A DNA stretch of 64,000 nucleotides from the NCBI GenBank assembly GCA_030429705.1, contig JAUIES010000002.1, forward strand, positions 374,001 through 438,000, given 5' to 3'. This DNA comes from Phycisphaerae bacterium. Lineage in GTDB: Bacteria; Planctomycetota; Phycisphaerae; Phycisphaerales; UBA1924. The translations under genes and the position numbers were made by a program. The notes beneath the pieces were generated by a model, which was given only the letters and a program-made list of their open reading frames with translations, made no database searches and was not told the DNA's origin. Of this stretch, positions 7,595 to 61,679 are shown piece after piece (the stretch's first letter is position 1; each line of letters begins with the position of its first letter).

Positions 7595-8619
7595 TGCACT
7601 TCGGCTCAGCCCAATGGATGCATGCACTCTGGCTCGTCCCGATCGTTGCCTGCTTGTGCGTCTATGCGCATGATGCACGGCGTCGCCTCTTGATGCGTTT
7701 TGCTGAAGACTCGGCGATGTTCGCTCTCACGCCCAGACGCCGCCCGTTCATCGGTATCGCAAAAATCGTCTTGTTGACGGCAGGCATTGCAGGATTGGTC
7801 CTTTCGTTGATGCGGCCGCAATGGAACGAACGCGAAATTCCACTCACGCGTCGAGGACGAGAGATCGTGTTCGTGATTGATGTATCGCGAAGCATGCTGG
7901 CCCGCGATCTGGCACCCAACAGACTCGAGCGATCAAAGTTGTGGATTCGTGATCTGGCTGCTTCGTTGCACGGTGATAGCGTTGGTCTGGTCGCGTTCGC
8001 TGGTGTCGCCGTCGTCAAGAGTCCGCTCACACGCGACCTCGGGTTCTTTGAAATGGCGGTTGAAGAACTCGGTCCGGATGCGGTTCCGCGTGGTGGTACG
8101 ATGATCGGTGACGCCATTCGCAAGGCTGTCAGTCAGGTGTTCGAGCGCTCACCCGATGACGACGCTGACCAGAATCTGTTTCGAGATATCATTTTGATTA
8201 CGGATGGCGAAGACCAGGGCAGTCTGCCGATCGAAGCAGCCAAAGCGGCAGCCGACGCAGGTATTCGGATTCTTGCGATTGGCATCGGCTCAGAGACTGA
8301 CGGTTCGCTGGTCCCCACGAATGAAAATGAGCAGGATTTCGTGACATTTGACGGGCAGCAGGTTCGCTCGAAGCTCGATGCGGCCACGCTCGTCCAGGTC
8401 GCACAGGCATCCCCTGGCGGCGTGTTTCTCAATGTCGGTACCGGCGATCTCAATCTCGATGATGTGTATCGAGACTTGATTGCGTCTGCCGATCAAGCGG
8501 ATCTTGAAACTGAAGCATCCGTACGATACGACGAAATGTTCTGGGTCTTCCTGGCAGGGTCCATTGCTTGTTTGATGGCTGAGTCGCTGCTGGAAGACCG
8601 CAGGAGGATGACGGCATGA
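7594..8619 (+). CDS. batB: BatB-like VWA-domain membrane protein
   Basis: This is the second VWA protein of the operon, 341 residues. It has N-terminal membrane helices (about 10-25 and 50-70), a MIDAS site VIDVSRSMLARD (DxSxS at about residue 96), the Thr loop PRGGTMIGDAI and the second Asp in ITDGEDQG. A C-terminal helix lies near residues 310-330. BatA and BatB usually form a complex with the TPR protein BatC, which is encoded next. The start overlaps the batA stop by one base and the end overlaps batC by 4 bp. Confidence 0.9.
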   Translation: MHFGSAQWMHALWLVPIVACLCVYAHDARRRLLMRFAEDSAMFALTPRRRPFIGIAKIVLLTAGIAGLVLSLMRPQWNEREIPLTRRGREIVFVIDVSRSMLARDLAPNRLERSKLWIRDLAASLHGDSVGLVAFAGVAVVKSPLTRDLGFFEMAVEELGPDAVPRGGTMIGDAIRKAVSQVFERSPDDDADQNLFRDIILITDGEDQGSLPIEAAKAAADAGIRILAIGIGSETDGSLVPTNENEQDFVTFDGQQVRSKLDAATLVQVAQASPGGVFLNVGTGDLNLDDVYRDLIASADQADLETEASVRYDEMFWVFLAGSIACLMAESLLEDRRRMTA

Positions 8620-50085: not shown

Positions 50086-51321
50086 TTACGGGCAGCCAGC
50101 CGAGAAAAGACCGAGATACTGAAGCACATCGGCAAAGTCGAGCACATCGTCATCAATGAAGTCGGCTCGCAGATCACCCGCAGCGAAGTACCCGAGGAAG
50201 ATCTGGACATCGAAGAAGTCCAACATGTCATCGGTGTTCAGATCTGCAGGACAGTCCACAATGCACGAGCCACTAAAGATGATGTCGGCAATCTGCATCG
50301 AGTTGGCCGCCCCCTCGTCACGAAGAGTCGGGAACACCATCTTGTATGCGGCATAGGCGGTTGCATTGTCAACAGCGACTGACGGTGCCATGGTCTGGCG
50401 ATCGACGGGCAGATCAATGATGTCACTGTCAACCAGCGTCCAATTCTCGCCGTCGCCGGGGCTGTTGTCTTCGCTGACGATTGCGTCATTCGTGCCATAG
50501 AGCTCCCAACTGCTCGGGTCACGCTCGGGTGAATCGTTTGCTGTGGTCATTCTGAATGACTCGATGATGGGGCTCTGGCCATCTGCACGCCACACGATGA
50601 AACCAGTATTCGCCCGGCCAAAATTGAGGTACTTGGAGTTTGAATCGTCATCAAGCGCAAACCCGGGTGCTTCGCCGCCGGGGTAACTACTTTCTGACTG
50701 CAAACGCCCCACCGCGAGCGCCGGATCGCCACTCGCAAGAATCTGGTCGCCGCTTCCTGCTGAACCGGTGAACAGACTGATGTCGGCGACCTGCATCGAA
50801 TTAGCCGCAGGGCCGTTCTTGAGTGTCGGGAACAAAACTTTGTACGAGGTGTACGAATTGCCGTTGGCGAAATCGTACACCGGGCCTTCGACCTGACGAT
50901 CGTCAGGCAGATTGCCGTCGCCCGTTGCAATGAGCGTCCAGTTCTCAGCAAAACCATCACTGTTGTCGCCGCTGGCGATCGCATCGTTCGTGCCATAAAG
51001 CTCCCAAGAGCCGGGATCACGCTCTGGAGAATCGTTCGCCGTCGTCATGCGCATGCTCTGCACCGTCGATGAGCCGAAGCTTGGCGTCATGATCAAACCG
51101 GTGCCTTCTTTACCGAAGTTGAGGTATTTGGATCCGGCGTTCTGGTCAAGTGCAGATCCAGGAGCTTCGCCGCCGGGGTAATTGCTGGCGACCGATACAT
51201 CCGAATCGACCGCCAGGATCGGGTCGCCGAACGCGAAGACCTGGGCGGAGGCACTCGCCGCACTCAGACCGGCCACAGCCGTCATCATCACGGCAGTCGT
51301 CATCACACTTCGTTGTTTCAT
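50086..51321 (-). CDS. Secreted protein with two discoidin-like repeats and GC-type dockerin tail
   Basis: This 411-residue protein has ATG 51321 with GAGAGGTGATCC upstream and a signal peptide ending ASASAQ. It contains an internal duplication (residues about 28-190 and 195-350). Each half has a SNYPGGEAPGSALDQNAGSK-type start, YLNFG, SMRMTTANDSPERDPGSWEL and YGTNDAI, a pattern close to the F5/8-type (discoidin) galactose-binding module. Residues about 355-411 are a GC-type dockerin (DMLDFFDVQIFLGYF, VLDFADVLQYLGLF, SAGCP), where the second repeat has DFADV in place of DFFDV. It is probably a surface carbohydrate- or polymer-binding protein. Confidence 0.88.
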   Translation of the reverse strand: MKQRSVMTTAVMMTAVAGLSAASASAQVFAFGDPILAVDSDVSVASNYPGGEAPGSALDQNAGSKYLNFGKEGTGLIMTPSFGSSTVQSMRMTTANDSPERDPGSWELYGTNDAIASGDNSDGFAENWTLIATGDGNLPDDRQVEGPVYDFANGNSYTSYKVLFPTLKNGPAANSMQVADISLFTGSAGSGDQILASGDPALAVGRLQSESSYPGGEAPGFALDDDSNSKYLNFGRANTGFIVWRADGQSPIIESFRMTTANDSPERDPSSWELYGTNDAIVSEDNSPGDGENWTLVDSDIIDLPVDRQTMAPSVAVDNATAYAAYKMVFPTLRDEGAANSMQIADIIFSGSCIVDCPADLNTDDMLDFFDVQIFLGYFAAGDLRADFIDDDVLDFADVLQYLGLFSAGCP

Positions 51322-51655: not shown

Positions 51656-53410
51656 ATGTCAGATTTTTTCGATGTTGCCATCGTCGGCGGCGGACCAGCG
51701 GGCACGACCTGCGCGTCACTCCTCCGCAAATACAACCCCGAACTTCGCGTCGGTATCTTCGAGAAAGAGAAGTTTCCGCGCGAACATGTCGGCGAGAGCC
51801 AGTTGCCTCTCATTGGCACCATCCTCAACGAGATGGGCTGCTGGGACAAGGTCGAAGCCGCTGACTTTCCGGTGAAGCTCGGCGCGACCTACCGCTGGGG
51901 CTCGAGCCCGGAGATGTGGGATTTCGAGTTTATCCCGTTCAGCGAATTCCGAGATGACCCGCGCCCCGCCACTTTCAGCGGGCAACGCCAATGGACCGCA
52001 TTCCAGGTCGACCGATCCATCTATGACAAGATTCTTCTAGACCACGCTGCCGAACTCGGAACTGAAGTCTTTGAAGAAACACTCGTCACTTCGGTCAATC
52101 GAAACGAAGTCAACGCCGATCGAATCGAAAGCCTGACGCTGAGCGACGGCCGGTCTGTAACCGCGACCACTTTTGTCGATGCTTCTGGACATGTTGGCAT
52201 CATCCGCCGTGCGATGGATGTTGATGTGACCTATCCGGGCAATATCAAGAATGTCGCGTTCTGGGATTATTGGGACAACGCCGAGTGGGCCGTATCAATC
52301 GGCACCGGCGGTACGCGTGTGTTCGTGCTCTCGATCGGGAGCGGCTGGATCTGGTTCATTCCGATTCGTAAGGACCGCGTGTCGATCGGGTATATCTGCC
52401 CAAGCCAATTCTATAAAGACAGTGGCAAAAGCCCGGAGGAAATCTACAACTGGGCCATCGAGCAAGAGCCTTTTGTCCAGCAGCACATTCAGAACGCCTC
52501 GCGAGACGGCACCGTTCACGCAACCAAGGATTGGTCATTCCTCTCAAAACGAATGACGGGCGACAACTGGTACATCGTTGGTGAAGCCGCCGGATTTGCA
52601 GACCCGATCCTCGCGGGGGGGATGATGCTGGCCCACGCTGGCGCCCGTGAACTGGCATATATCATTCTCGAAGAACATCGTGGCAATCACGATGCCAAGT
52701 GGCTTCGCCAGCACTATGAGCATGTGCAAACGCGCCGCATCAACCAGCACATCCAGTTCGCTGATTTCTGGTACGCGGGCAACGGGCAGTTTACCGACCT
52801 CGAAGAACACACCAAAGCCATCGCACGCAAGGCGGGAATCAAGATGAACGCAAAATCCGCCTTCCAGTGGCTCGCCAATGGTGGGTTCCTCGATGATGTG
52901 CCCGGTCGCGCGGGTGTCGGTGGACTCGATATTGCTGCGACCAAAGAAATCACCGGTCTCTTCACCGGTGAGCAGACCTCGGCTGGCTGGAAACTCAACG
53001 ATTTCAACTCGTTCAGACTGAACCTCTCGCGGGCAACCAAAGAGAAGTTCCCGCTCTTTTACGACGGTCGTATCGAGGAAGCAGTCGGCTATCGTCGTGG
53101 CGTGAAGTGGTTGCCACTTGTCACGCACAATGCCATTCTCGTTGAACTTCTCCAAAAACACAACGATGTGCATGACCTCATTGATGGTTTGCGCAAGTTC
53201 TACACCTCGCGGCGCGGCAAGACCGCCGACCGGGCGGCGGTCAATGTGCAGCAGGCGATGGCCACGCTCGAAGTTCTGCTCGTTGATGGATGGGTTGAAG
53301 GCAAGTTCAACCCCAAGAGGCCGAAGTTCTCAATTCAATCAAAGGGTGAAGACGGGATGATCCACGCCAATCGCGATGTTCAGAAAAACGCGGTCGATAC
53401 GAACAACTAG
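51656..53410 (+). CDS. Flavin-dependent halogenase-like oxidoreductase
   Basis: This 584-residue protein has an FAD-binding Rossmann start (VAIVGGGPAGTTCASLLRK, residues 8-26), the GESQLP motif (46-51) and a Lys in FPVKLGATYRWG (Lys74) where halogenases carry their catalytic lysine. The sequence SGWIWFIPIR (about 229-238) holds the WxWxIP motif considered diagnostic of flavin-dependent halogenases. GEAAGFADPILAGGM (309-323) is the second FAD motif. The length and motif set resemble phenol/pyrrole-type halogenases (CmlS/PltA-like). A role in halogenating a small molecule is inferred; no biosynthetic cluster surrounds it, and the related geranylgeranyl-reductase family is an alternative. No separate flavin reductase gene is seen. 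Confidence 0.8.
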   Translation: MSDFFDVAIVGGGPAGTTCASLLRKYNPELRVGIFEKEKFPREHVGESQLPLIGTILNEMGCWDKVEAADFPVKLGATYRWGSSPEMWDFEFIPFSEFRDDPRPATFSGQRQWTAFQVDRSIYDKILLDHAAELGTEVFEETLVTSVNRNEVNADRIESLTLSDGRSVTATTFVDASGHVGIIRRAMDVDVTYPGNIKNVAFWDYWDNAEWAVSIGTGGTRVFVLSIGSGWIWFIPIRKDRVSIGYICPSQFYKDSGKSPEEIYNWAIEQEPFVQQHIQNASRDGTVHATKDWSFLSKRMTGDNWYIVGEAAGFADPILAGGMMLAHAGARELAYIILEEHRGNHDAKWLRQHYEHVQTRRINQHIQFADFWYAGNGQFTDLEEHTKAIARKAGIKMNAKSAFQWLANGGFLDDVPGRAGVGGLDIAATKEITGLFTGEQTSAGWKLNDFNSFRLNLSRATKEKFPLFYDGRIEEAVGYRRGVKWLPLVTHNAILVELLQKHNDVHDLIDGLRKFYTSRRGKTADRAAVNVQQAMATLEVLLVDGWVEGKFNPKRPKFSIQSKGEDGMIHANRDVQKNAVDTNN

Positions 53411-53428: not shown

Positions 53429-54388
53429 TTACCCCCCGTCAGCGATCGCTGCCCGCAGGCGTTCGATATTCTGCTGCATTCGTGTAATGAAGTCACCTTG
53501 GTCCGAGCCCGATTCGCACGGATCAAAAACGATGCTCTCCGCTCCGACTTGCTCGCGAACTGCCTCGATGTTTGCAACAATGGGCATCGACTCCCACAAC
53601 ATGATGCGTGTTCGGCCCGCCAGTTCATCCGAATCGATCGAACGCAACTGCTCTGTCTGTTCTGCACTGATCGGCTCGTCGGGAGCAAAGTCAAAGTTTT
53701 TGAGCGACCAGTCATACCGTCTTGCGAGATAGTTGTACGCCGGATGGTTCGCCATCAAGATGACCTTTTGCATCTCGTCGTTCAGCTTGCGCAAGTCTTG
53801 ATCGAGATCCCGCAAGTCGCGTTCGAGTTGAGCGAAACCGGTATCAAACTGCGATGCAGACTGAGGGAACGCACGCTTAAGTCCTTCATGAACTGCATGA
53901 GCCTGTTGCAGCGCCAACACCGGGTCGAGCCAGGTGTGGCCATCAATGCCTTCGTGCGAGTGACTCCCCGCAGGGCCGTGGCTGTGCGTTGTCGCGGTTT
54001 CATACTTCAGGTATTTGTCCGCAAACGAACGCGAGGTATCGACCAGTCGACTCCTTGTTAACGGGGCCGTGACAACCCACGACTCAAAAGATGCGCCGTT
54101 TACAAACACAACGGTCGCCTGTTGCATCAGCCGAATATCGTTGGAAGAAGGATGCCAGGTCGCCGGGTCTGCATCATTTGAAACCGGGCAGACGACATCA
54201 ACCTGCCCGCCTCCAATGCGTTCGGCAAAGTATGTGAGGGGGTAAAACGAAGTGACGGCCGTCTGCGACTCGGCGGACTGCTCTGGTTTGTCTGCGTCCG
54301 GTCCTTCGCTGTGCCCACACGACACCAACGCCATTCCGACAACGACTCCCAACAGGGCTATACCAAGTGATCTCTTCAAAGCGAGCAC
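53429..54388 (-). CDS. ZnuA-type metal ABC transporter substrate-binding lipoprotein
   Basis: This 319-residue lipoprotein has a lipobox LVSC (Cys about 24) and the cluster A-I metal-binding fold: SFYPLTYFAERIGG, ATWHPSSNDI (first His ligand), a His-rich loop (SHGPAGSHSHEGIDGH), TWLDPVLALQQAHAV and MANHPAYNYLARRY (third His). FDPCESGSD supplies the acidic ligand. Such proteins bind zinc or manganese outside the membrane. GTG 54388 is chosen because GGAGG lies seven bases upstream; a TTG at 54394 would be too close. It is the last gene of a four-gene operon whose permease and ATPase are not of the ZnuBC type. Confidence 0.88.
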   Translation of the reverse strand: MLALKRSLGIALLGVVVGMALVSCGHSEGPDADKPEQSAESQTAVTSFYPLTYFAERIGGGQVDVVCPVSNDADPATWHPSSNDIRLMQQATVVFVNGASFESWVVTAPLTRSRLVDTSRSFADKYLKYETATTHSHGPAGSHSHEGIDGHTWLDPVLALQQAHAVHEGLKRAFPQSASQFDTGFAQLERDLRDLDQDLRKLNDEMQKVILMANHPAYNYLARRYDWSLKNFDFAPDEPISAEQTEQLRSIDSDELAGRTRIMLWESMPIVANIEAVREQVGAESIVFDPCESGSDQGDFITRMQQNIERLRAAIADGG

Positions 54389-54407
54389 GCACAATCCTCC
54401 AAATTCA

Positions 54408-55586
54408 TTAGATCAAAGCCATCAACTCAGGCGCCAGCGCTCGTGCTGCGAATGACAGTGCAATCGCAAGCACGATACCGACACACGCTAAACCGCCAAA
54501 CTCGGCTGCGAACATGCACGGTATCGTCCACTGAGCACACCCTATTCTAGTCATGGTCTGCCGTTCGCGGGCTCTCATACGATACGACAACGCCAGAATG
54601 AGGAGTGCAAGCATGAGATTTGTCGCAACAAACGCGACCGACACCGCATCGATCACCGACTTGATGCGCACGACATACGCCAATAGTTCATCCGTCACTC
54701 GCGACGGTGAGACCACCTGGTTCAACTTCGACAAATTGATCTCGGTTTTGAGGAGTGTCTCTGCCCGCTGATCATCAGGGATGATCAGCACACTGGTCAG
54801 CGGCAACGACCGTGGATCATCATGCAAGTGGTACGCATTAAGCGCCCCCTGCTCGACTTCCTGATATTCGATCACGGCACCACTGAGTGCCGTATCTGCT
54901 CCTTGTCTGTTCAAGACCATGGATGGATCATCTTGAGCGATCGCAGCAGCCTCATCATGTCCATGCACAATACCGTCAAGCAGCCACGCCGTCGAGATGT
55001 CGACAAAAACGACATCGTCATCAGGGCTGTCCGTTGTTTCGAGTACACCGACAATCTTTAAACGAATCGCGGGCGCTTTCGAGATATCGTACAAATCCTC
55101 TTGATCTGAGAAGATGGATTCGCCGACAGCAAGACCTTCCTTCTGAGCGACACGCGACCCGAGCACGCACGCACCCAGCCCCGTAGGCCATCCCCCCTCC
55201 GCATATTCGAATGATCGCAAGGTGGTATATTCATATCCGGTTCCGACGACGACAGAGCCGCGTGCCGTGTGCCGGATGTGCATCGGAATCGCTATGCCGA
55301 GCCCCTGATCCTGCACATCCATCGCGAAGCCCATTGTTGTCGGCACCACCGAAGCCTGCCGAAAGTGCGTCGTCGCCAGCACAAGGTCGAACCGCGACCC
55401 GCGTGACCCCGCCACCAATGGCGTGCGTTCGGCCCGGTCGCGCAGTGACTGGTCATAGCGGCTCATCAACATCGAGGTCGTGAGCGGCAACGCCGTTGCA
55501 ATCAATAAACACAGCGTGAGAATCACACTCTGTACGCCATGCGAGCGCGCATGCATGAACGCAAGATAAATCGGCCCAACGATCAT
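54408..55586 (-). CDS. FtsX/MacB-type ABC transporter permease
   Basis: This 392-residue protein has one N-terminal helix (VQSVILTLCLLIATALPLTT), a long extracytoplasmic domain (about residues 45-300) and C-terminal helices (SVAFVATNLMLALLILALSY and EFGGLACVGIVLAIALSF). This is the layout of FtsX/MacB/LolC permeases and not of ZnuB, which is entirely transmembrane. It overlaps the ATPase gene by 4 bp and lies 19 bp before the binding-protein gene, so all three are expected to be one transporter. Confidence 0.82.
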   Translation of the reverse strand: MIVGPIYLAFMHARSHGVQSVILTLCLLIATALPLTTSMLMSRYDQSLRDRAERTPLVAGSRGSRFDLVLATTHFRQASVVPTTMGFAMDVQDQGLGIAIPMHIRHTARGSVVVGTGYEYTTLRSFEYAEGGWPTGLGACVLGSRVAQKEGLAVGESIFSDQEDLYDISKAPAIRLKIVGVLETTDSPDDDVVFVDISTAWLLDGIVHGHDEAAAIAQDDPSMVLNRQGADTALSGAVIEYQEVEQGALNAYHLHDDPRSLPLTSVLIIPDDQRAETLLKTEINLSKLNQVVSPSRVTDELLAYVVRIKSVIDAVSVAFVATNLMLALLILALSYRMRARERQTMTRIGCAQWTIPCMFAAEFGGLACVGIVLAIALSFAARALAPELMALI

Positions 55587-56278
55587 GGGCTGGGCTCCGC
55601 AACGCTTTGCTGATTCAAAGTGTCCAGGTGGATCACCCGATCAAACAACTTGAGTAACTCATGATTGTGCGTCACAACCAGCATGGCGGCACCGGATGTC
55701 GTCACATGCTCAAGCAAAAGTTCGATGACACCAGATGCATTCTTCGGATCAAGATTTCCGGTTGGTTCGTCGGCAATAACAAGTTCCGGCTGGGTCACAA
55801 GTGCACGGCACACCGCCACCCGCTGGCGTTCACCTTGCGACAACCGAGTCGGTTTTCGATTGAGAAGATGACCGACACCCAGTGTTGAAGCCAACGCACG
55901 ACTTCGCCTTCGGGCTGCCACCATGTCGCCGGTGGCTGGAGAAAGCCGGTACGGCAACAGGATGTTGTCCAGAGCGCTCAAGTAATCGAGCAACTCGAAC
56001 TCCTGAAACACCATGCCGATGCGCCGGATGCGTTGAGCGCGCCGCTCGGGCTCACTCAGTCTGCTCATGACCACATCACCGACGCGAACCTCACCGCGCT
56101 GCGGCACGAGCACGCCCGACAGCAGGTTGATGAGCGTTGTCTTGCCACATCCGCTGTGACCGACACACGCCACGCGTTCACTCGGCGCAATCTCGAGTGA
56201 TGGAACGGCCAACGCGAACCCGTCTCGCTCGGGGTATGTGAATGCAACATCGGCAAAGGACGCAGCCGGTGCTGTCAT
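55583..56278 (-). CDS. LolD/MacB-type ABC transporter ATPase
   Basis: This 231-residue cytoplasmic ATPase has Walker A GHSGCGKTTLINLLSG (about residues 39-54), a Q-loop in GMVFQEFELLDYLSALDNIL, signature LSQGERQRVAVCRAL, Walker B LVIADEPTGNLDP and switch His in VVTHNHELLKLFD. The motif set is typical of the MacB/LolD group that serves FtsX-like permeases. It overlaps both neighbouring genes by 4 bp. Confidence 0.93.
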   Translation of the reverse strand: MTAPAASFADVAFTYPERDGFALAVPSLEIAPSERVACVGHSGCGKTTLINLLSGVLVPQRGEVRVGDVVMSRLSEPERRAQRIRRIGMVFQEFELLDYLSALDNILLPYRLSPATGDMVAARRRSRALASTLGVGHLLNRKPTRLSQGERQRVAVCRALVTQPELVIADEPTGNLDPKNASGVIELLLEHVTTSGAAMLVVTHNHELLKLFDRVIHLDTLNQQSVAEPSP

Positions 56279-57585
56279 ATCTCCCCATCCAAAAACTGAG
56301 GCGGTGCCTTGGTCTCAGGGTCCAGGCGAACCTGGCTGAGCATTCGATTGCCGGTGATACGCCAGCCGTCGGTCAGTTGGGCGACCGTGTACTCAGCGGT
56401 GTACTCATTCGATCGTTCATGTGAATGGCCGTAGTGATAGACAACGCCATCGACTTGCCACTTGGCTCGAACGGAAAATGCCGGAACATCATCTTCACCG
56501 ATCATGCCTGTCGAGAGGACCTCGACTTCCATCAAGCGTACAGCAGACACCCGGCTGACCGCGCCACCTTCGTCGTACATGATCAGGCTGCGATAGATCT
56601 CATCGTACAGCGTCTCCAGCAGATCACCCGAGACACTGCGGGCGAGTGCGTCATATATCTCGCCTCGCTGTTCGTAGTCAAACGCTCGATAGATATTGGC
56701 GTGCAACGGTTCAAAGATGGCTCGGGCCTCTGCTTCTGTCAACTGCCCGCCGCCGATCGGAGCCAGTTCGACGACCCCCACCGTTCGAAATGCGGGAGCA
56801 ACGGCAAACAGAAACACGCCGCCCGCTATCCAGCCGAACCGCTTGCCTGACTTGGCGATCCCGCTGGCCAGCAACGCCAAGCCGGTGATGGCAAGACTGA
56901 ACGCAAACATCGGCAATCGCACGGTGCCGGTTGTACTGGCGAACGCACCGTCCGGTACCGGCTCGAATCGTTCTTCGCGTGTCTTACCAGTCCCGTGCCA
57001 GATCTGCTCGGGCTCGGTTGGTGTAAAACTGAGGATCGACACACGACCCTCCGCGCTCAACTGGGCTTGGATGGTCATCGGAGGGAAGTTACCCTCGCTG
57101 TCAGGCAACGCCAAGACATCCGGTGGAAACACGCTCCACACGAACCGCACATTGCGAGGCAGCGACTTGCCTGGGTAGGTGATCTCGAGTTTGGCGCGAA
57201 GGAGCCCACGCATGCCCGAGTTCGGGAACAGCGGCAAGTTCTCAAGCCCCGGTCGAATCATCTCAAACGCGTCGAAGACTGGCTCAACCTCGACGCCATC
57301 GATCTCGACAAGAAACTGATTGCGGAAGAACGCCTCGAGTGCATCCTTCAGCATGGGCTCTTCGATCACATCAAGTGCGTCGGGCGACTCACGATTGATC
57401 TCGACAATCTCATCGACGAACGCCAGATTGATCATCATCCCGAACTGAACGCCTGATTCGTCAATCTCTGCCCGAATATCCGCGTGAGGTCCGTCCTGAG
57501 GGTGAACTACTTCGCCCGCAGACCCCACCGAAAGACCGAACACCACCAGCAGCACCATGAGTTTGACGAGCACCAACTGTCGCAC
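56275..57585 (-). CDS. Exported membrane protein of the metal ABC operon, unknown function
   Basis: This 436-residue protein has a signal peptide (LVLVKLMVLLVVFGLSVGSA) and an extracytoplasmic domain of about 190 residues. That domain starts HADIRAEIDESGVQFGMMIN and includes LRAKLEITYPGKSLPRNVRF. Two helices follow (about residues 228-245 and 252-272), then a second exported domain ending in a VAQLTDGWRITGNRMLSQVR fold that resembles small SnoaL/Tim44-like modules. I do not recognise the family. It is the first gene of the operon and overlaps the ATPase by 4 bp, so it is likely a dedicated accessory of this transporter. Confidence 0.72.
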   Translation of the reverse strand: MRQLVLVKLMVLLVVFGLSVGSAGEVVHPQDGPHADIRAEIDESGVQFGMMINLAFVDEIVEINRESPDALDVIEEPMLKDALEAFFRNQFLVEIDGVEVEPVFDAFEMIRPGLENLPLFPNSGMRGLLRAKLEITYPGKSLPRNVRFVWSVFPPDVLALPDSEGNFPPMTIQAQLSAEGRVSILSFTPTEPEQIWHGTGKTREERFEPVPDGAFASTTGTVRLPMFAFSLAITGLALLASGIAKSGKRFGWIAGGVFLFAVAPAFRTVGVVELAPIGGGQLTEAEARAIFEPLHANIYRAFDYEQRGEIYDALARSVSGDLLETLYDEIYRSLIMYDEGGAVSRVSAVRLMEVEVLSTGMIGEDDVPAFSVRAKWQVDGVVYHYGHSHERSNEYTAEYTVAQLTDGWRITGNRMLSQVRLDPETKAPPQFLDGEI

Positions 57586-57725
57586 GGGCGGTATCCTTTT
57601 CTATCAACGGCTCGTCAGGGGCGGTATTCGGCCGCATTCAATCCGACGAGTTGTAGGCGATTCATCATAGAGTCGCTACACTATTCGGGTCAGGACTCAC
57701 GAAGAGAACATGCCAAGGAGAACCC

Positions 57726-59654
57726 ATGAAGAAATCGTCAATGCCCGGTTGGGCTGCATGTCTGGCCGTTTGCTCGGCTTTCACCGCTCACGCCAACGAA
57801 CCCGGCGACGCGCCCATCGCGGATGCGCTCGCCTCGGTCTCTGAGCAGGTTCGAATCTATAACGACCACCTGACAATCCTCGCCAGTCCGTGGATGGAGG
57901 GTCGTGTACCCGGCTCGCGCGGCATGGAACTTGCGCGCGAATATGTCGAAGTGCACATGATGCAGACCGGTCTGCTCCCGGCGTTCCCGGAGACCGCAAC
58001 CGGTGCTGATGGGTCAGAGGTCATCACACCCAACGCGACCTACCGCCAACAGTTCCCCCTTGGTGGCACCAGCAAGGTCACCGCCGAGTCGATAACCACC
58101 AACATCAACGGCAAGCAGTCCGAACTCGTCGCGGGCACCGACTTCTCGGTACTCGGTCTCGGTTCAAACGGCGCGGCGCAAGGCGGACTCGTGTTTGTTG
58201 GTTATTCAGTCAACGACGGGCCGGACGGTTACTCCAGTTTCAATGACGACGATGACCTGACGGGCAAGATCGCTGTCATGCTGCGGTTTGAACCGGTCGA
58301 TGACGACGGCTCGAGCCGGTGGGCAGATGGCAACGGCTGGTCCAACCGCGCTTCGTTTGCAACGAAGATGGCGGCTATCCGCGACCGCAACCCGGCAGCG
58401 GTGATCATCGTCAACACACCCGGCACCAATGACCCTCGAGCCGGCCAGTTGATGGGTGCCAACAGTGCGGGGGGGCGAACCCTTGATTGCCCTGTCCTGA
58501 TGATGTCAACCGAAGCGGGCGACAAGTTGGTCTCACAGGCTGATGCTGAAGGCCGCTCACTGCTCCAGCTGCGTCAACTCGCCGACGAAGGCCGCGCGAT
58601 TGTTCCGCTCAACGGCTCGATGTCGCTTGAAGCCAAGATCGAACGCGAATCACTCATCGCGGAAAATGTTGCAGGTATCCTCCCTGGCAAGGGCGACCTT
58701 GCCGATGAATACATCGTCGTCGGTGGCCACCTCGACCACCTCGGCATGGGTTACTTCGGTTCCCGCAGCGGCCCGGGCGAACTGCACCCCGGCGCTGACG
58801 ACAACGCCTCGGGTGCTGCTGGCATTCTGATCTTCGCTGACAACATGAAGCGGACCTATGACGCATTGCCCGCGGATGCCGACGCCCGGTCGATTATCTT
58901 CATGTGCTTTGATGCGGAAGAATCGGGGCTCAACGGCTCGCGTTACTACACCAACAACCCGATCGTCCCGATTGACGATCACATCTTCATGGTCAACTTT
59001 GACATGATCGGTCGCCTGGAGAACAAACGACTGAGTGTGTCTGGTTACACAACTGCGGAAGGTTTCAAGGAATGGCTTCAGCCTTACTTTGCCGACACGC
59101 CGTTGACAGTCGTGCAGAACGACCGGATCAATGGCGCGAGTGATCACACGCCATTCATGCAGAAGCAGGTTCCCGTGCTCTTTGGTATCTGTGCCGATTT
59201 CCACGCCGATTATCACACCCCGAGCGATGTGAGTTCGCTCATCAACCGCGTCGGTGCGGTCGAGACCATTGATCTGTTCTCGAACATCGTCACCGGCGTT
59301 GCGACGCGGCCCGAACGACTGACCTGGGCAAGTACAGATCGCGGCGACAACGCACGACAGGGCGGTCAGCAGCGCGGCGGCGAGAGCGGCATCAAGGTCC
59401 GCGTCGGTGTCATGCCCGGCTACAACGCCGAGGGCGAAGGCGTGCCGATCGAAGAGGTCACGCCCGAGAGTTCAGCTGCGCGTGCGGGCGTCGTTGCCGG
59501 CGACAAGTTGATCCGCTGGGACGGGCAGAAGATCGAAGACATCTACGCCTGGATGGACATGCTCGGTAAAGCCAACCCGGGCGACAAGATCAAGATCGGC
59601 GTGCTGCGTGATGGCAAGGAAGTCACGCTCGACATCGAACTCGACGGCCGATGA
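57726..59654 (+). CDS. Secreted M28-family metallopeptidase with PA insert and C-terminal PDZ domain
   Basis: This 642-residue exported zinc aminopeptidase-like enzyme starts at ATG 57726 with AAGGAGAACCC upstream. A signal peptide ends TAHAN. A protease-associated region lies at about residues 140-270. The catalytic M28 domain shows HLDHLGMG (first His, about 335), HPGADDNASGAAGIL (bridging Asp, about 356), CFDAEESGLNGSRYY (Glu base and ligand), VNFDMIGRL (Asp ligand) and ADYHTPSD (last His). Residues about 545-642 form a PDZ domain (SSAARAGVVAGDKLIRWDGQ, LGKANPGDKIKIGVLRDGKE). It probably degrades peptides outside the cell. A clear terminator follows. Confidence 0.92.
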   Translation: MKKSSMPGWAACLAVCSAFTAHANEPGDAPIADALASVSEQVRIYNDHLTILASPWMEGRVPGSRGMELAREYVEVHMMQTGLLPAFPETATGADGSEVITPNATYRQQFPLGGTSKVTAESITTNINGKQSELVAGTDFSVLGLGSNGAAQGGLVFVGYSVNDGPDGYSSFNDDDDLTGKIAVMLRFEPVDDDGSSRWADGNGWSNRASFATKMAAIRDRNPAAVIIVNTPGTNDPRAGQLMGANSAGGRTLDCPVLMMSTEAGDKLVSQADAEGRSLLQLRQLADEGRAIVPLNGSMSLEAKIERESLIAENVAGILPGKGDLADEYIVVGGHLDHLGMGYFGSRSGPGELHPGADDNASGAAGILIFADNMKRTYDALPADADARSIIFMCFDAEESGLNGSRYYTNNPIVPIDDHIFMVNFDMIGRLENKRLSVSGYTTAEGFKEWLQPYFADTPLTVVQNDRINGASDHTPFMQKQVPVLFGICADFHADYHTPSDVSSLINRVGAVETIDLFSNIVTGVATRPERLTWASTDRGDNARQGGQQRGGESGIKVRVGVMPGYNAEGEGVPIEEVTPESSAARAGVVAGDKLIRWDGQKIEDIYAWMDMLGKANPGDKIKIGVLRDGKEVTLDIELDGR

Positions 59655-60095: not shown

Positions 60096-61679
60096 TTATG
60101 GCAAGACTGACTGCGTCTGATAGGAAATGCGCACTGAATAAATCGCATGTGATATTGCTTCGAAACTCACGCGTACATAATACACATAGTTTACATTATC
60201 GATGATTGGATTGAATGTGTTCGGCGTTGAGTCACTCCAACGCCCGTCTGCATCCAAGCCTGAACTGACGATTGCCATTGTTTCGCGGCCATCAGGGTCC
60301 AGCTCTTGTCTGTACAGCTGAACAACAAGTTGGTCGGCATCAGAAAGATTGTATCCGGTCGCATACAAGGCAACCACTTCCGCACCGTGTGGGAGATGCA
60401 CGGGCGCCCAGGCAATGATTCTATTTGGGCTGATTGTATGAATGCTCAGATTACCTGAGTTGTCTTCGTAGAGCGTTGCCCCCAAAAAGTCTGCGGCGGA
60501 AAGTGTGTACCATCGAGTCGTTGGGTCAACGGTCACGCTTGCCGCAGTGATATCACCAGCCACCGCCAAGTCACCCGATCCGACTGAAGAGTTATTGCTC
60601 CCCACCGCGACGCCACCGTTTGCGTTCACGCGAAATCGTGTGGTTCCACCCACTTGCACACGGAACGCCGATTCGCCTGCATTTGACGAAACATGCAAAC
60701 GATCGGTCGGTCCGTCTTGACCAATTCCAACTCGTCCCTCGACACCATTACGACCCAAGATCACATTGCCACCCTCAACATTGAGAAACAGCGTTGCCAG
60801 TTCACTATTAAAACGAGCCATGATCTCGTTATTGTCGAACGCCAGGTTGTCGTCTGTCGGTGAACCAAGCACAAGGTACCCCTGTTGGTTCTGCCCGGCA
60901 TCTTGACCGCCAAAGATATGCAAACTGCCCGTCGGCACGCCTCCGATACCGATCCAATTCCCGTCCGAGTTCATCGCCCCGCCAGAGACGCGGAGGAGAC
61001 TCGAGGCTTCATTGGCCAACGCAAAAGTACTATCAAAGAGATGGAGTCCCCCACCCGCTAAATATGTGTTAACATTGTCGATGCCATCGGCGAACCCCGA
61101 CGGCACATTCGTCAGCCCATTCCAACTCGTCGTCCCGGGGGGGCCCATGTTGCCTTGCGGTCCTTGTTCGCCTTGTGGCCCTTCGGGCCCGATCGGTCCT
61201 GTGTCGCCCTGCGGACCTTGTGGTCCTTCTTCGCCTTGCGGTCCTTCGGGTCCGGCCGAACCAACATTCCCATTGATCGCAAACAGCGCCACCGGAGCGG
61301 CCGTGACGGGCTACCGTGTCGTCAGTGTGGTGAACGAGCCAGCACCAGCGGGTGAAGGAACATCAATCTCGATCCAGCGCGGGTCGCCGTCAAACGCGTC
61401 AATGCCGAAGTCGAGCCCCACGGTGAATCGGCCATCGACGACGGTGTGATTGTTGATCGAAACCGGCGTACCAATCAGCGTCCCCCCGGCTGCTGCGTCA
61501 TAGAGCCGGAAGGCGAAATCGGCGGTGCCATTGAGCGGCTCGTCGTTCATGAGCAACTCGCCCTGGTACGAGATCTCGTCGACCATGCCTGCGGACATTC
61601 CGGCTGAAGCTCGGGCGGGCATCGCCGCTGTACACACTGTCAGAGCGGCTGCCGCCACGATCGCACAAACATACTTCAT
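60096..61679 (-). pseudogene. Collagen-like tail-fibre-type surface protein, interrupted by an in-frame amber codon
   Basis: ATG 61679 (after GGAGGATTGAAAG) starts a signal peptide and an ISYQGELLMNDEPLNGTADF/RLYDAAAGG domain homologous to the N terminus of the 12997-14430 product. After 122 residues the frame hits TAG at 61311-61313. The same frame then continues [15 protein letters not shown] into six or more Gly-x-y collagen-like triplets ([16 protein letters not shown]) and a tail-fibre-like body to 60096. The stop stands where the intact relative has Gln (LQPITRTPYAM against R[13 protein letters not shown]), so a single C-to-T change explains it. Unless read through, the product is a short secreted fragment; restart at the GTG at 61292 would lack a signal peptide. 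Confidence 0.8.

Follow-up and report, generated by a model that had tools for sequence, protein, structure and literature searches.

The window analysed here comprises 64,000 nucleotides of a contig from a Phycisphaerae bacterium (GenBank assembly GCA_030429705.1, contig JAUIES010000002.1, positions 374,001 to 438,000). On its minus strand, at 53429–57585, four contiguous open reading frames (ORFs) encode a protein that we call protein A, an ATP-binding cassette (ABC) ATPase of the LolD/FtsE type, a permease of the MacB/LolC-E/FtsX type and a ZnuA-like lipoprotein. An earlier note on this DNA had described the locus as a hybrid of a ZnuA-like protein, an FtsX-type permease and a LolD-type ATPase; the ORFs and their Pfam matches (Table 1) show that the hybrid is real. 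Four-base ATGA overlaps join the genes for A and the ATPase and those for the ATPase and the permease, and 13 bases lie between the permease and the binding-protein ORF. This last ORF is listed from a TTG at 54394, but translation probably begins at the GTG at 54388 (319 amino acids (aa)), because a GGAGG lies seven bases ahead of it.

The source genome (3.49 Mb) has two further PF01297 (ZnuA-family) genes, both on another contig (C4). Its matches to ABC-3 permeases, the usual partners of the family, are confined to that contig, and none lies at the four-gene locus. Chance adjacency and misassembly are ruled out by the recurrent co-occurrence and adjacency of the genes across genomes, and a lineage-restricted curiosity by the occurrence of the set in several other phyla.

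A conserved partnership across phyla

The permease, the ATPase and a distinct clade of ZnuA-family proteins constitute a conserved partnership, often together with protein A. For the permease and the binding protein, the co-occurrence search that the earlier note had proposed was carried out across 246 genomes of the phylum, with no more than 7 or 9 candidates scored in each and cut-offs placed at natural gaps in the E values (4.7e-97 versus 4.3e-42 for the permease; 3.4e-49 versus 3.4e-41 for the binding protein). This set 62 permease rows (61 genomes) and 59 binding-protein rows (58 genomes) apart from weaker matches. Both clades were present in 57 genomes, the permease alone in four and the binding protein alone in one (Fisher P = 7e-50, for genomes that are not independent), and 49 permease/binding-protein pairs lay at most 1 kilobase (kb) apart. 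In two of the four genomes with the permease alone (G362 and G404), a divergent binding-protein copy adjoins it, and in a third (G346) the piece is cut by the contig end; in all, a binding protein was found in 60 of the 61 permease-bearing genomes.

Protein A is present in 13 of 61 genomes of the source's family, and permease matches at E 1e-3, many of them weak, occur in 87 of 201 genomes of the order. Among the 49 loci of the order with a clear permease, all four genes are present at 22, A is missing from 14 and the binding protein from 13; of the 13 genomes concerned, seven have a copy of the binding protein elsewhere (E 9e-55 or better). The presence of A and of the binding protein is complementary at these loci (L051–L101), in that none of the 49 lacks both. 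A further 65 permease loci (63 from the phylum scan or from genomes queried for unlinked permeases, plus two on plasmids) include 37 with all four genes, 16 without A and 23 without a binding protein in the stretch, some of these stretches being ended by a contig edge. A search of 20 ORFs upstream of the ATPase gene, drawn from 12 of the 16 loci without A, revealed no A homologue. On plasmids, the set occurs in Methylomagnum ishizawai and in Paracoccus liaowanqingii, where A is reduced to its last domain.

A scan of GTDB genomes for the pattern HxHGPxGxHxH, taken from the histidine loop of the binding protein described below, returned at least 115 stretches, of which 80 were taken as loci (set 2, L148–L227). 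Seventy contain a binding protein of this clade and ten have no ZnuA-like ORF. A permease is also present within the stretch (at most 8 kb) at 37 loci, which, judging by how the records are named, include members of the Planctomycetota, Verrucomicrobiota, Pseudomonadota, Desulfobulbaceae and relatives, Acidobacteriota and Riflebacteria. Apart from these 37, a Cytophagales genome has all four genes (L296), the cyanobacterium Xenococcus has the permease, ATPase and A at one locus (L288) and the binding protein at another (L173), and a myxococcotal locus (L188) contributes a binding protein of the clade. At the other 33 of the 70 motif loci with a binding protein, the stretch holds no permease. 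Nineteen of them were queried; two (L163 and L206) proved to be linked on a longer stretch, and 12 of the remaining 17 genomes have a permease elsewhere, although at L216, which lies at a contig end, linkage is possible.

A remodelled ZnuA-family protein

The binding protein matches PF01297 strongly but is not a standard ZnuA: part of the canonical metal site has been lost, and a conserved loop of histidines is present in its place. Among 138 distinct proteins of the clade, none has His at the position of ligand 1, 55 have His at ligand 2 (83 have another residue), 112 have His at ligand 3 and 121 have an acidic ligand 4; in the window protein, ligands 1 to 4 are Ala, His, His and Glu. Seven distinct rows were dropped before this count, three as short matches (L066, L102 and L345) and four that scored below 150 bits (L103, L149, L320 and L360); L066, L320 and L345 are FtsX-linked. 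In L378, the genome copy of the divergent FtsX-linked protein L320, ligands 1 and 2 are Asp and Glu. The first two His of the loop, HxHGxxGxHxH, are present in 138 of 138 proteins. All four occur in 68 of the 73 proteins that were not chosen by motif, which are counted separately because set 2 was selected by the loop.

Twenty-two relatives from outside the clade, a set that excludes the FtsX-linked L378, have His at ligands 1, 2 and 3 in 17, 22 and 22 cases, and Glu at ligand 4 in 17. Twenty adjoin ABC-3 permeases, and the other two (L364 and L376) show no ABC-3 gene in the stretch. The loop is absent from nine; seven have His in all four aligned columns, and none has the HxHGxxGxHxH spacing. 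The picture of a remodelled site should not be drawn too simply: Ala stands at ligand 1 in five of the 22 as well, so its loss alone is not special; the FtsX-linked L066 has a His aligned at that position; and the window protein still has canonical ligands 2 to 4. A 64-protein tree was built from 40 of the 138, both rows of the divergent protein L320/L378 and the 22 outside relatives; in it, a branch with 100/100 support separates the outside relatives from the other 42 rows, although the program warned of long branches and the bootstrap had not settled.

Two side observations concern this family. Five PF01297 proteins adjoining ABC-3 permeases (L365, L368, L379, L381 and L360) have Ala at ligand 1 and Gln at the acidic ligand, and form a supported group in the tree. 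The pattern HxHGPxGxHxH also occurs in ORFs of Streptomyces and Kitasatospora (L153, L168 and L169) that do not match the binding-protein profile.

Permease and ATPase

The permease model (mean predicted local distance difference test (pLDDT) score 85.5) has four transmembrane (TM) helices; residues ~57–292, between TM1 and TM2, form a periplasmic head. Its structural matches (Foldseek, VIA-align) include a non-canonical ABC transporter of Streptococcus pneumoniae (5xu1; Z 17.9, root-mean-square deviation (r.m.s.d.) 7.6 over 309), LolE (9rld; Z 16.0, r.m.s.d. 10.4 over 323), the heme exporter HrtB (7w7a; Z 15.5, r.m.s.d. 6.8 over 282) and the MacB head (3ftj; Z 14.8, r.m.s.d. 3.7 over 186), as well as the FtsX fold; weak rows were not taken as exclusions. 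FtsX, YtrF, YbbP and LolE are among the matches in a profile search of solved chains. Four head residues, H208, H210, H253 and H255, are His in all 141 distinct permeases that score at least 300 bits. Alignment columns with at least 70% His are confined to the periplasmic head, no column anywhere reaches 70% Cys, and the sole acidic column above 90% in the TM segments is E362 (94%).

The 141 members score 329–540 bits against the permease profile, Zrg-type permeases 114–123 bits and a group with His-rich inserts 110–144 bits; we regard these as separate groups of one superfamily. The third group, from Planctomycetota (L346–L352), has its inserts (for example, GHDHGHGHDH) in the same head region. 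An ATPase gene adjoins six of these permeases (L346–L350 and L352), and no binding protein of the present clade was matched near the six. The ATPase of the window comes closest to LolD in NCBIfam (171 bits; cut-off 307.75), with FtsE and DevA also near, and stays below every cut-off shown.

Protein A

No Pfam family matches more than one of 25 members of protein A, so the assignment of A to a known Pfam family was dropped. The AlphaFold model (mean pLDDT 80.7, built from 15 sequences) has two domains, and the predicted layout is an N-terminal hydrophobic segment, a ZrgA/Ang-1-like domain (~30–209), a membrane hairpin (~226–267) and an NTF2-like domain (~280–432). Residues 30–209 resemble, with middling Z values, the copper-bound Ang-1 of HupE/UreJ-2 (9gce; Z 11.2, r.m.s.d. 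3.9 over 147), Vibrio ZrgA (8ezw; Z 10.2, r.m.s.d. 3.6 over 125) and PA4063 (7amx; Z 9.6, r.m.s.d. 3.9 over 132). Residues 280–432 resemble the NTF2-like protein ARC6, again at a middling value (5had; Z 11.6, r.m.s.d. 2.8 over 124), and many other NTF2-like folds. Identification of A as a ZrgA by sequence is unsupported, as a profile comparison with three ZrgA proteins gave a probability of 1.7 (from a weak profile). The earlier note had called A a novel exported membrane protein, but it is not wholly foreign to Zrg, since its first domain is modelled with a ZrgA-like fold, without sequence support.

A motif in the second domain, HxxHxH, is present in the whole ORF of A at 97 of 97 loci, which represent 95 distinct domain sequences and in some cases share a genome; within the first matched stretch of the domain it is found in 92 of the 95. 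H28, near the putative mature N terminus, is near-invariant in the alignment of 25. In Paracoccus, the NTF2-like domain is a separate gene adjoining a DUF4198 gene; DUF4198 also occurs in Ang-1 neighbourhoods (PMC12537917). As judged from the alignments, conserved His clusters thus mark all three parts predicted to lie outside the cytoplasm: the binding protein, the permease head and A.

Upstream region and neighbouring genes

A gene for an M28 metallopeptidase lies divergently upstream of A (Table 1). M28 peptidases use zinc. The source genome has only five M28 matches, and an M28 gene adjoins A at 22 of 49 loci of the order, 2 of 36 motif loci and 18 of 67 further permease loci; one of the two motif cases repeats a locus of the order, L199 being on the contig of L094. 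Both orientations occur, apparently with two M28 subfamilies: the gene is reversed at L302, and at five loci of family f23 it lies on the same strand and has a much lower profile score. We give no P value for the adjacency because many of the loci are related.

A simple scan of the 140 bases upstream of A for a Zur-like dyad (arms of 7 with at least 6 matching, gap of at most 3) found none, so the Zur site that the earlier note had suggested looking for did not appear by this means. The source genome has three Fur-family matches. Upstream of a canonical binding-protein gene of the same genome (L102, contig C4, ~7741–7756) there is a palindrome, TGTAGCC-TA-TGCTACA, which is possibly a metal-regulator site.

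A FAD-dependent protein of the tryptophan-halogenase family (51656–53410, plus strand) is convergent with the operon and has no match at other loci of set 1. An ORF at 60096–61292 (minus strand) starts with collagen-like GPxGPxG repeats. Another, at 50086–51321 (minus strand), has two near-repeated domains and a C-terminal segment that we take to resemble dockerin.

Table 1 Features of the four-gene operon and its upstream flank (positions in the window)
Feature	Positions	Strand	Remarks
Protein A	57585–56275	minus	436 aa ORF, GTG start; no match in Pfam or NCBIfam
HxxHxH motif of A (H384, H387, H389)	56419–56436	minus	Invariant in alignment of 25
ATPase, LolD/FtsE type	56278–55583	minus	231 aa; ABC_tran 6.8e-31
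Permease, MacB/LolC-E/FtsX type	55586–54408	minus	392 aa; MacB_PCD 1.2e-7
HGH of permease head (H208, H210)	54957–54965	minus	Both His in 141/141
HxH of permease head (H253, H255)	54822–54830	minus	Both His in 141/141
ZnuA-like lipoprotein	54394–53429	minus	321 aa ORF; PF01297 (ZnuA) 2.9e-45; lipobox LVSC
Position of canonical ligand 1 (Ala78)	54161–54163	minus	His in 0/138 of the clade
His loop HSHGPAGSHSH (residues 137–147)	53954–53986	minus	HxHGxxGxHxH
Intergenic region A/M28	57586–57725		No Zur-like dyad by simple dyad scan
M28 metallopeptidase, with PA and PDZ domains	57726–59654	plus	Pfam; divergent from A

A possible route for metal transfer outside the cytoplasm

Tentatively, we favour a reading of the operon as a Zrg-like ABC machine of type VII (the MacB/LolC-E/FtsX superfamily). 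By mechanotransmission, it would use ATP to transfer a divalent transition metal, with zinc the most likely, at the outer surface of the inner membrane. The binding protein would pick up the metal through its HxHGxxGxHxH loop and the mostly retained His and Glu ligands. ATP-driven closing of the paired permease heads, at HGH and HxH, would take the metal and hand it, where A is present, to the HxxHxH of that protein. From there it could move on to exported metalloproteins, for instance the M28 peptidase of the neighbouring gene, with no conduction through the membrane. Zinc is favoured because of the binding-protein family, the relation to Zrg and the peptidase neighbour. With less assurance, we suggest as a possible wider view that there is a class of ABC machines, in at least eight bacterial phyla to judge by the names of the records, that spend ATP to move metal between proteins wholly outside the cytoplasm (a 'Lol system for zinc') and so load exported enzymes, for example of the M28 family.

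Several observations weigh against this reading. The metal and the direction of transport are both predicted and unproven. Nickel is a real alternative, because a NikR gene and a TonB receptor lie near the Methylomagnum copy, and the DUF4198 neighbours of the Paracoccus copy are likewise compatible with it. Published relatives are described as a zinc importer (Zrg, PMC9820375) and as an exporter (PA4063–PA4066, PMC11481552). A lipobox-like stretch occurs in just 89 of 145 binding proteins, so not all clade members need be lipoproteins. Six genomes, all of family f6, have A, the ATPase and the permease without such a binding protein (two are only 70–78% complete, and a seventh f6 genome, G192, does have one), and 5 of the 17 genomes with an unlinked binding protein, all drafts, show no permease of this clade. 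As A is locally absent from 14 of 49 and 16 of 65 permease loci, it is no universal acceptor. M28 genes beside A were seen only at Planctomycetota loci, many of them closely related, and the second M28 subfamily stems from the single family f23.

Three mechanisms had been offered in the earlier note: transport of a metal chelate, loading of a metalloprotein outside the membrane and a new type of importer. The evidence leans towards the second, with the other two as alternatives. An importer of the Zrg kind, in which the permease head would receive zinc (or nickel) from the binding protein and the ion would enter the cytoplasm at the expense of ATP, seems to us rather unlikely, although a cluster A-I binding protein is a usual import part, Zrg-type permeases match the present profile, and Zrg is required without zinc for normal growth when ZnuA is absent (PMC9820375). 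Two PF01297 systems linked to ABC-3 permeases are already present in the source genome, no pore is seen in type VII permeases (PMC12646458), the TM helices of the permease have no conserved His or Cys column, and no Zur-like site was found upstream by the simple scan. That a MacB-type pair might instead expel a metal chelate or metallophore, the outer proteins receiving metal, is improbable. PA4064/PA4065 are proposed to export a pyochelin–cobalt complex (PMC11481552), the permease model also matches HrtB, and adaptor, RND or MacA/MacB-like genes, identified by eye, lie a few genes away at L222, at L163/L286 and in family f23. Such partners, however, did not recur as immediate neighbours in the families surveyed (metallophore genes were not searched for), and a binding protein in 60 of 61 permease genomes would be unusual for an exporter.

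It is still harder to credit that the system is a sensor or switch, in which metal on the binding protein or the permease head gates the ATPase and so controls an exported enzyme such as M28, as FtsEX controls amidases. There is a precedent in FtsEX–EnvC (PMC12646458) and M28 recurs as a neighbour, but no case beside A was seen outside Planctomycetota, and three separate metal-type sites would suggest transfer over sensing. An incidental adjacency, in which the lipoprotein serves a ZnuBC system elsewhere, would accord with the unlinked copies and with the ABC-3 permeases of the source genome. We consider it barely conceivable, as 57 of the 62 genomes that hold either part hold both, the same pairing is conserved in other phyla, and the tree has a clean single split from 22 relatives, 20 of them ABC-3-linked. 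The refuting condition named in the earlier note, a binding protein with its own ZnuBC elsewhere and an adjacency that relatives do not conserve, was put to the test on these data and does not hold.

If the transfer reading is true, cells would have an energised route by which to metallate exported enzymes. Two published accounts of Zrg-type systems differ, one favouring import (PMC9820375) and the other export (PMC11481552). With four strictly conserved His in the permease head and a clear-cut protein partner, the present clade makes the question testable.

Comparison with known systems

Full-text searches of open-licence literature listed no description of a ZnuA-family protein paired with an FtsX/MacB permease; the available portions of work on PA4063 (PMC8561739), on the zinc genes of Paracoccus denitrificans (PMC5387054) and on nickel in cable bacteria (PMC11247825) do not mention it. 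ZnuABC and other cluster A-I importers share the PF01297 binding protein, but they have an ABC-3 permease and a site of three His plus an acidic residue, neither of which applies here; these relatives fall on the other side of the tree and lack the loop spacing of the present clade. The clade also offers a naturally occurring example of cluster A-I binding proteins that work with a different type of transporter.

The fold and topology of the permease are shared with the type VII systems LolCDE, MacAB, FtsEX and YbbAP–TesA, but the partners and the invariant His differ. To our knowledge, none of these four uses a metal-binding protein. LolCDE has a LolC/LolE pair, in contrast to the one permease gene here, and the ATPase lies under the LolD cut-off. 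In type VII systems, a periplasmic partner is typical and no pore is seen (PMC12646458). The fold of the Ang-1 'anglerase' of HupE/UreJ-2 (PMC12537917) is shared by the model of residues 30–209 of A, and the near-invariant H28 near the putative mature N terminus of A is a further likeness; A does not match the HupE/UreJ-2 family and has instead the hairpin and the NTF2-like domain.

The closest likeness had been sought by the earlier note in the Zrg system of Vibrio, and this comparison holds. Zrg and PA4063–PA4066 (ZrgA, a MacB-like permease, a LolD-like ATPase and a DUF3299 protein) likewise have a separate LolD-like ATPase, a homologous four-TM MacB-like permease and a periplasmic metal protein, and the first domain of A is modelled with a ZrgA-like fold. 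They differ in having ZrgA where the present system has a ZnuA-family lipoprotein and an NTF2-like domain, and in a permease at 114–123 bits, as against 329–540 bits for the present clade with its four invariant His. The source genome has no match to PF10986 (ZrgA), which was found in 4 of the 25 genomes of that search, and none to DUF3299 (ZrgE), for which the control genomes gave none either. The two kinds coexist in two genomes (G491 and G484). In Desulfofustis (L360, 4287–11723), a Zrg operon (ZrgA, ATPase, permease and, by eye, a DUF3299-like ORF) lies beside a ZnuABC cluster and a Fur-like-looking ORF, and the same genome carries the present system (L219). From these sequence relationships we read the operon as a variant of Zrg-like type VII ABC systems, with a homologous permease, and not as a member of Zrg itself, because ZrgA by sequence is absent from the source genome.

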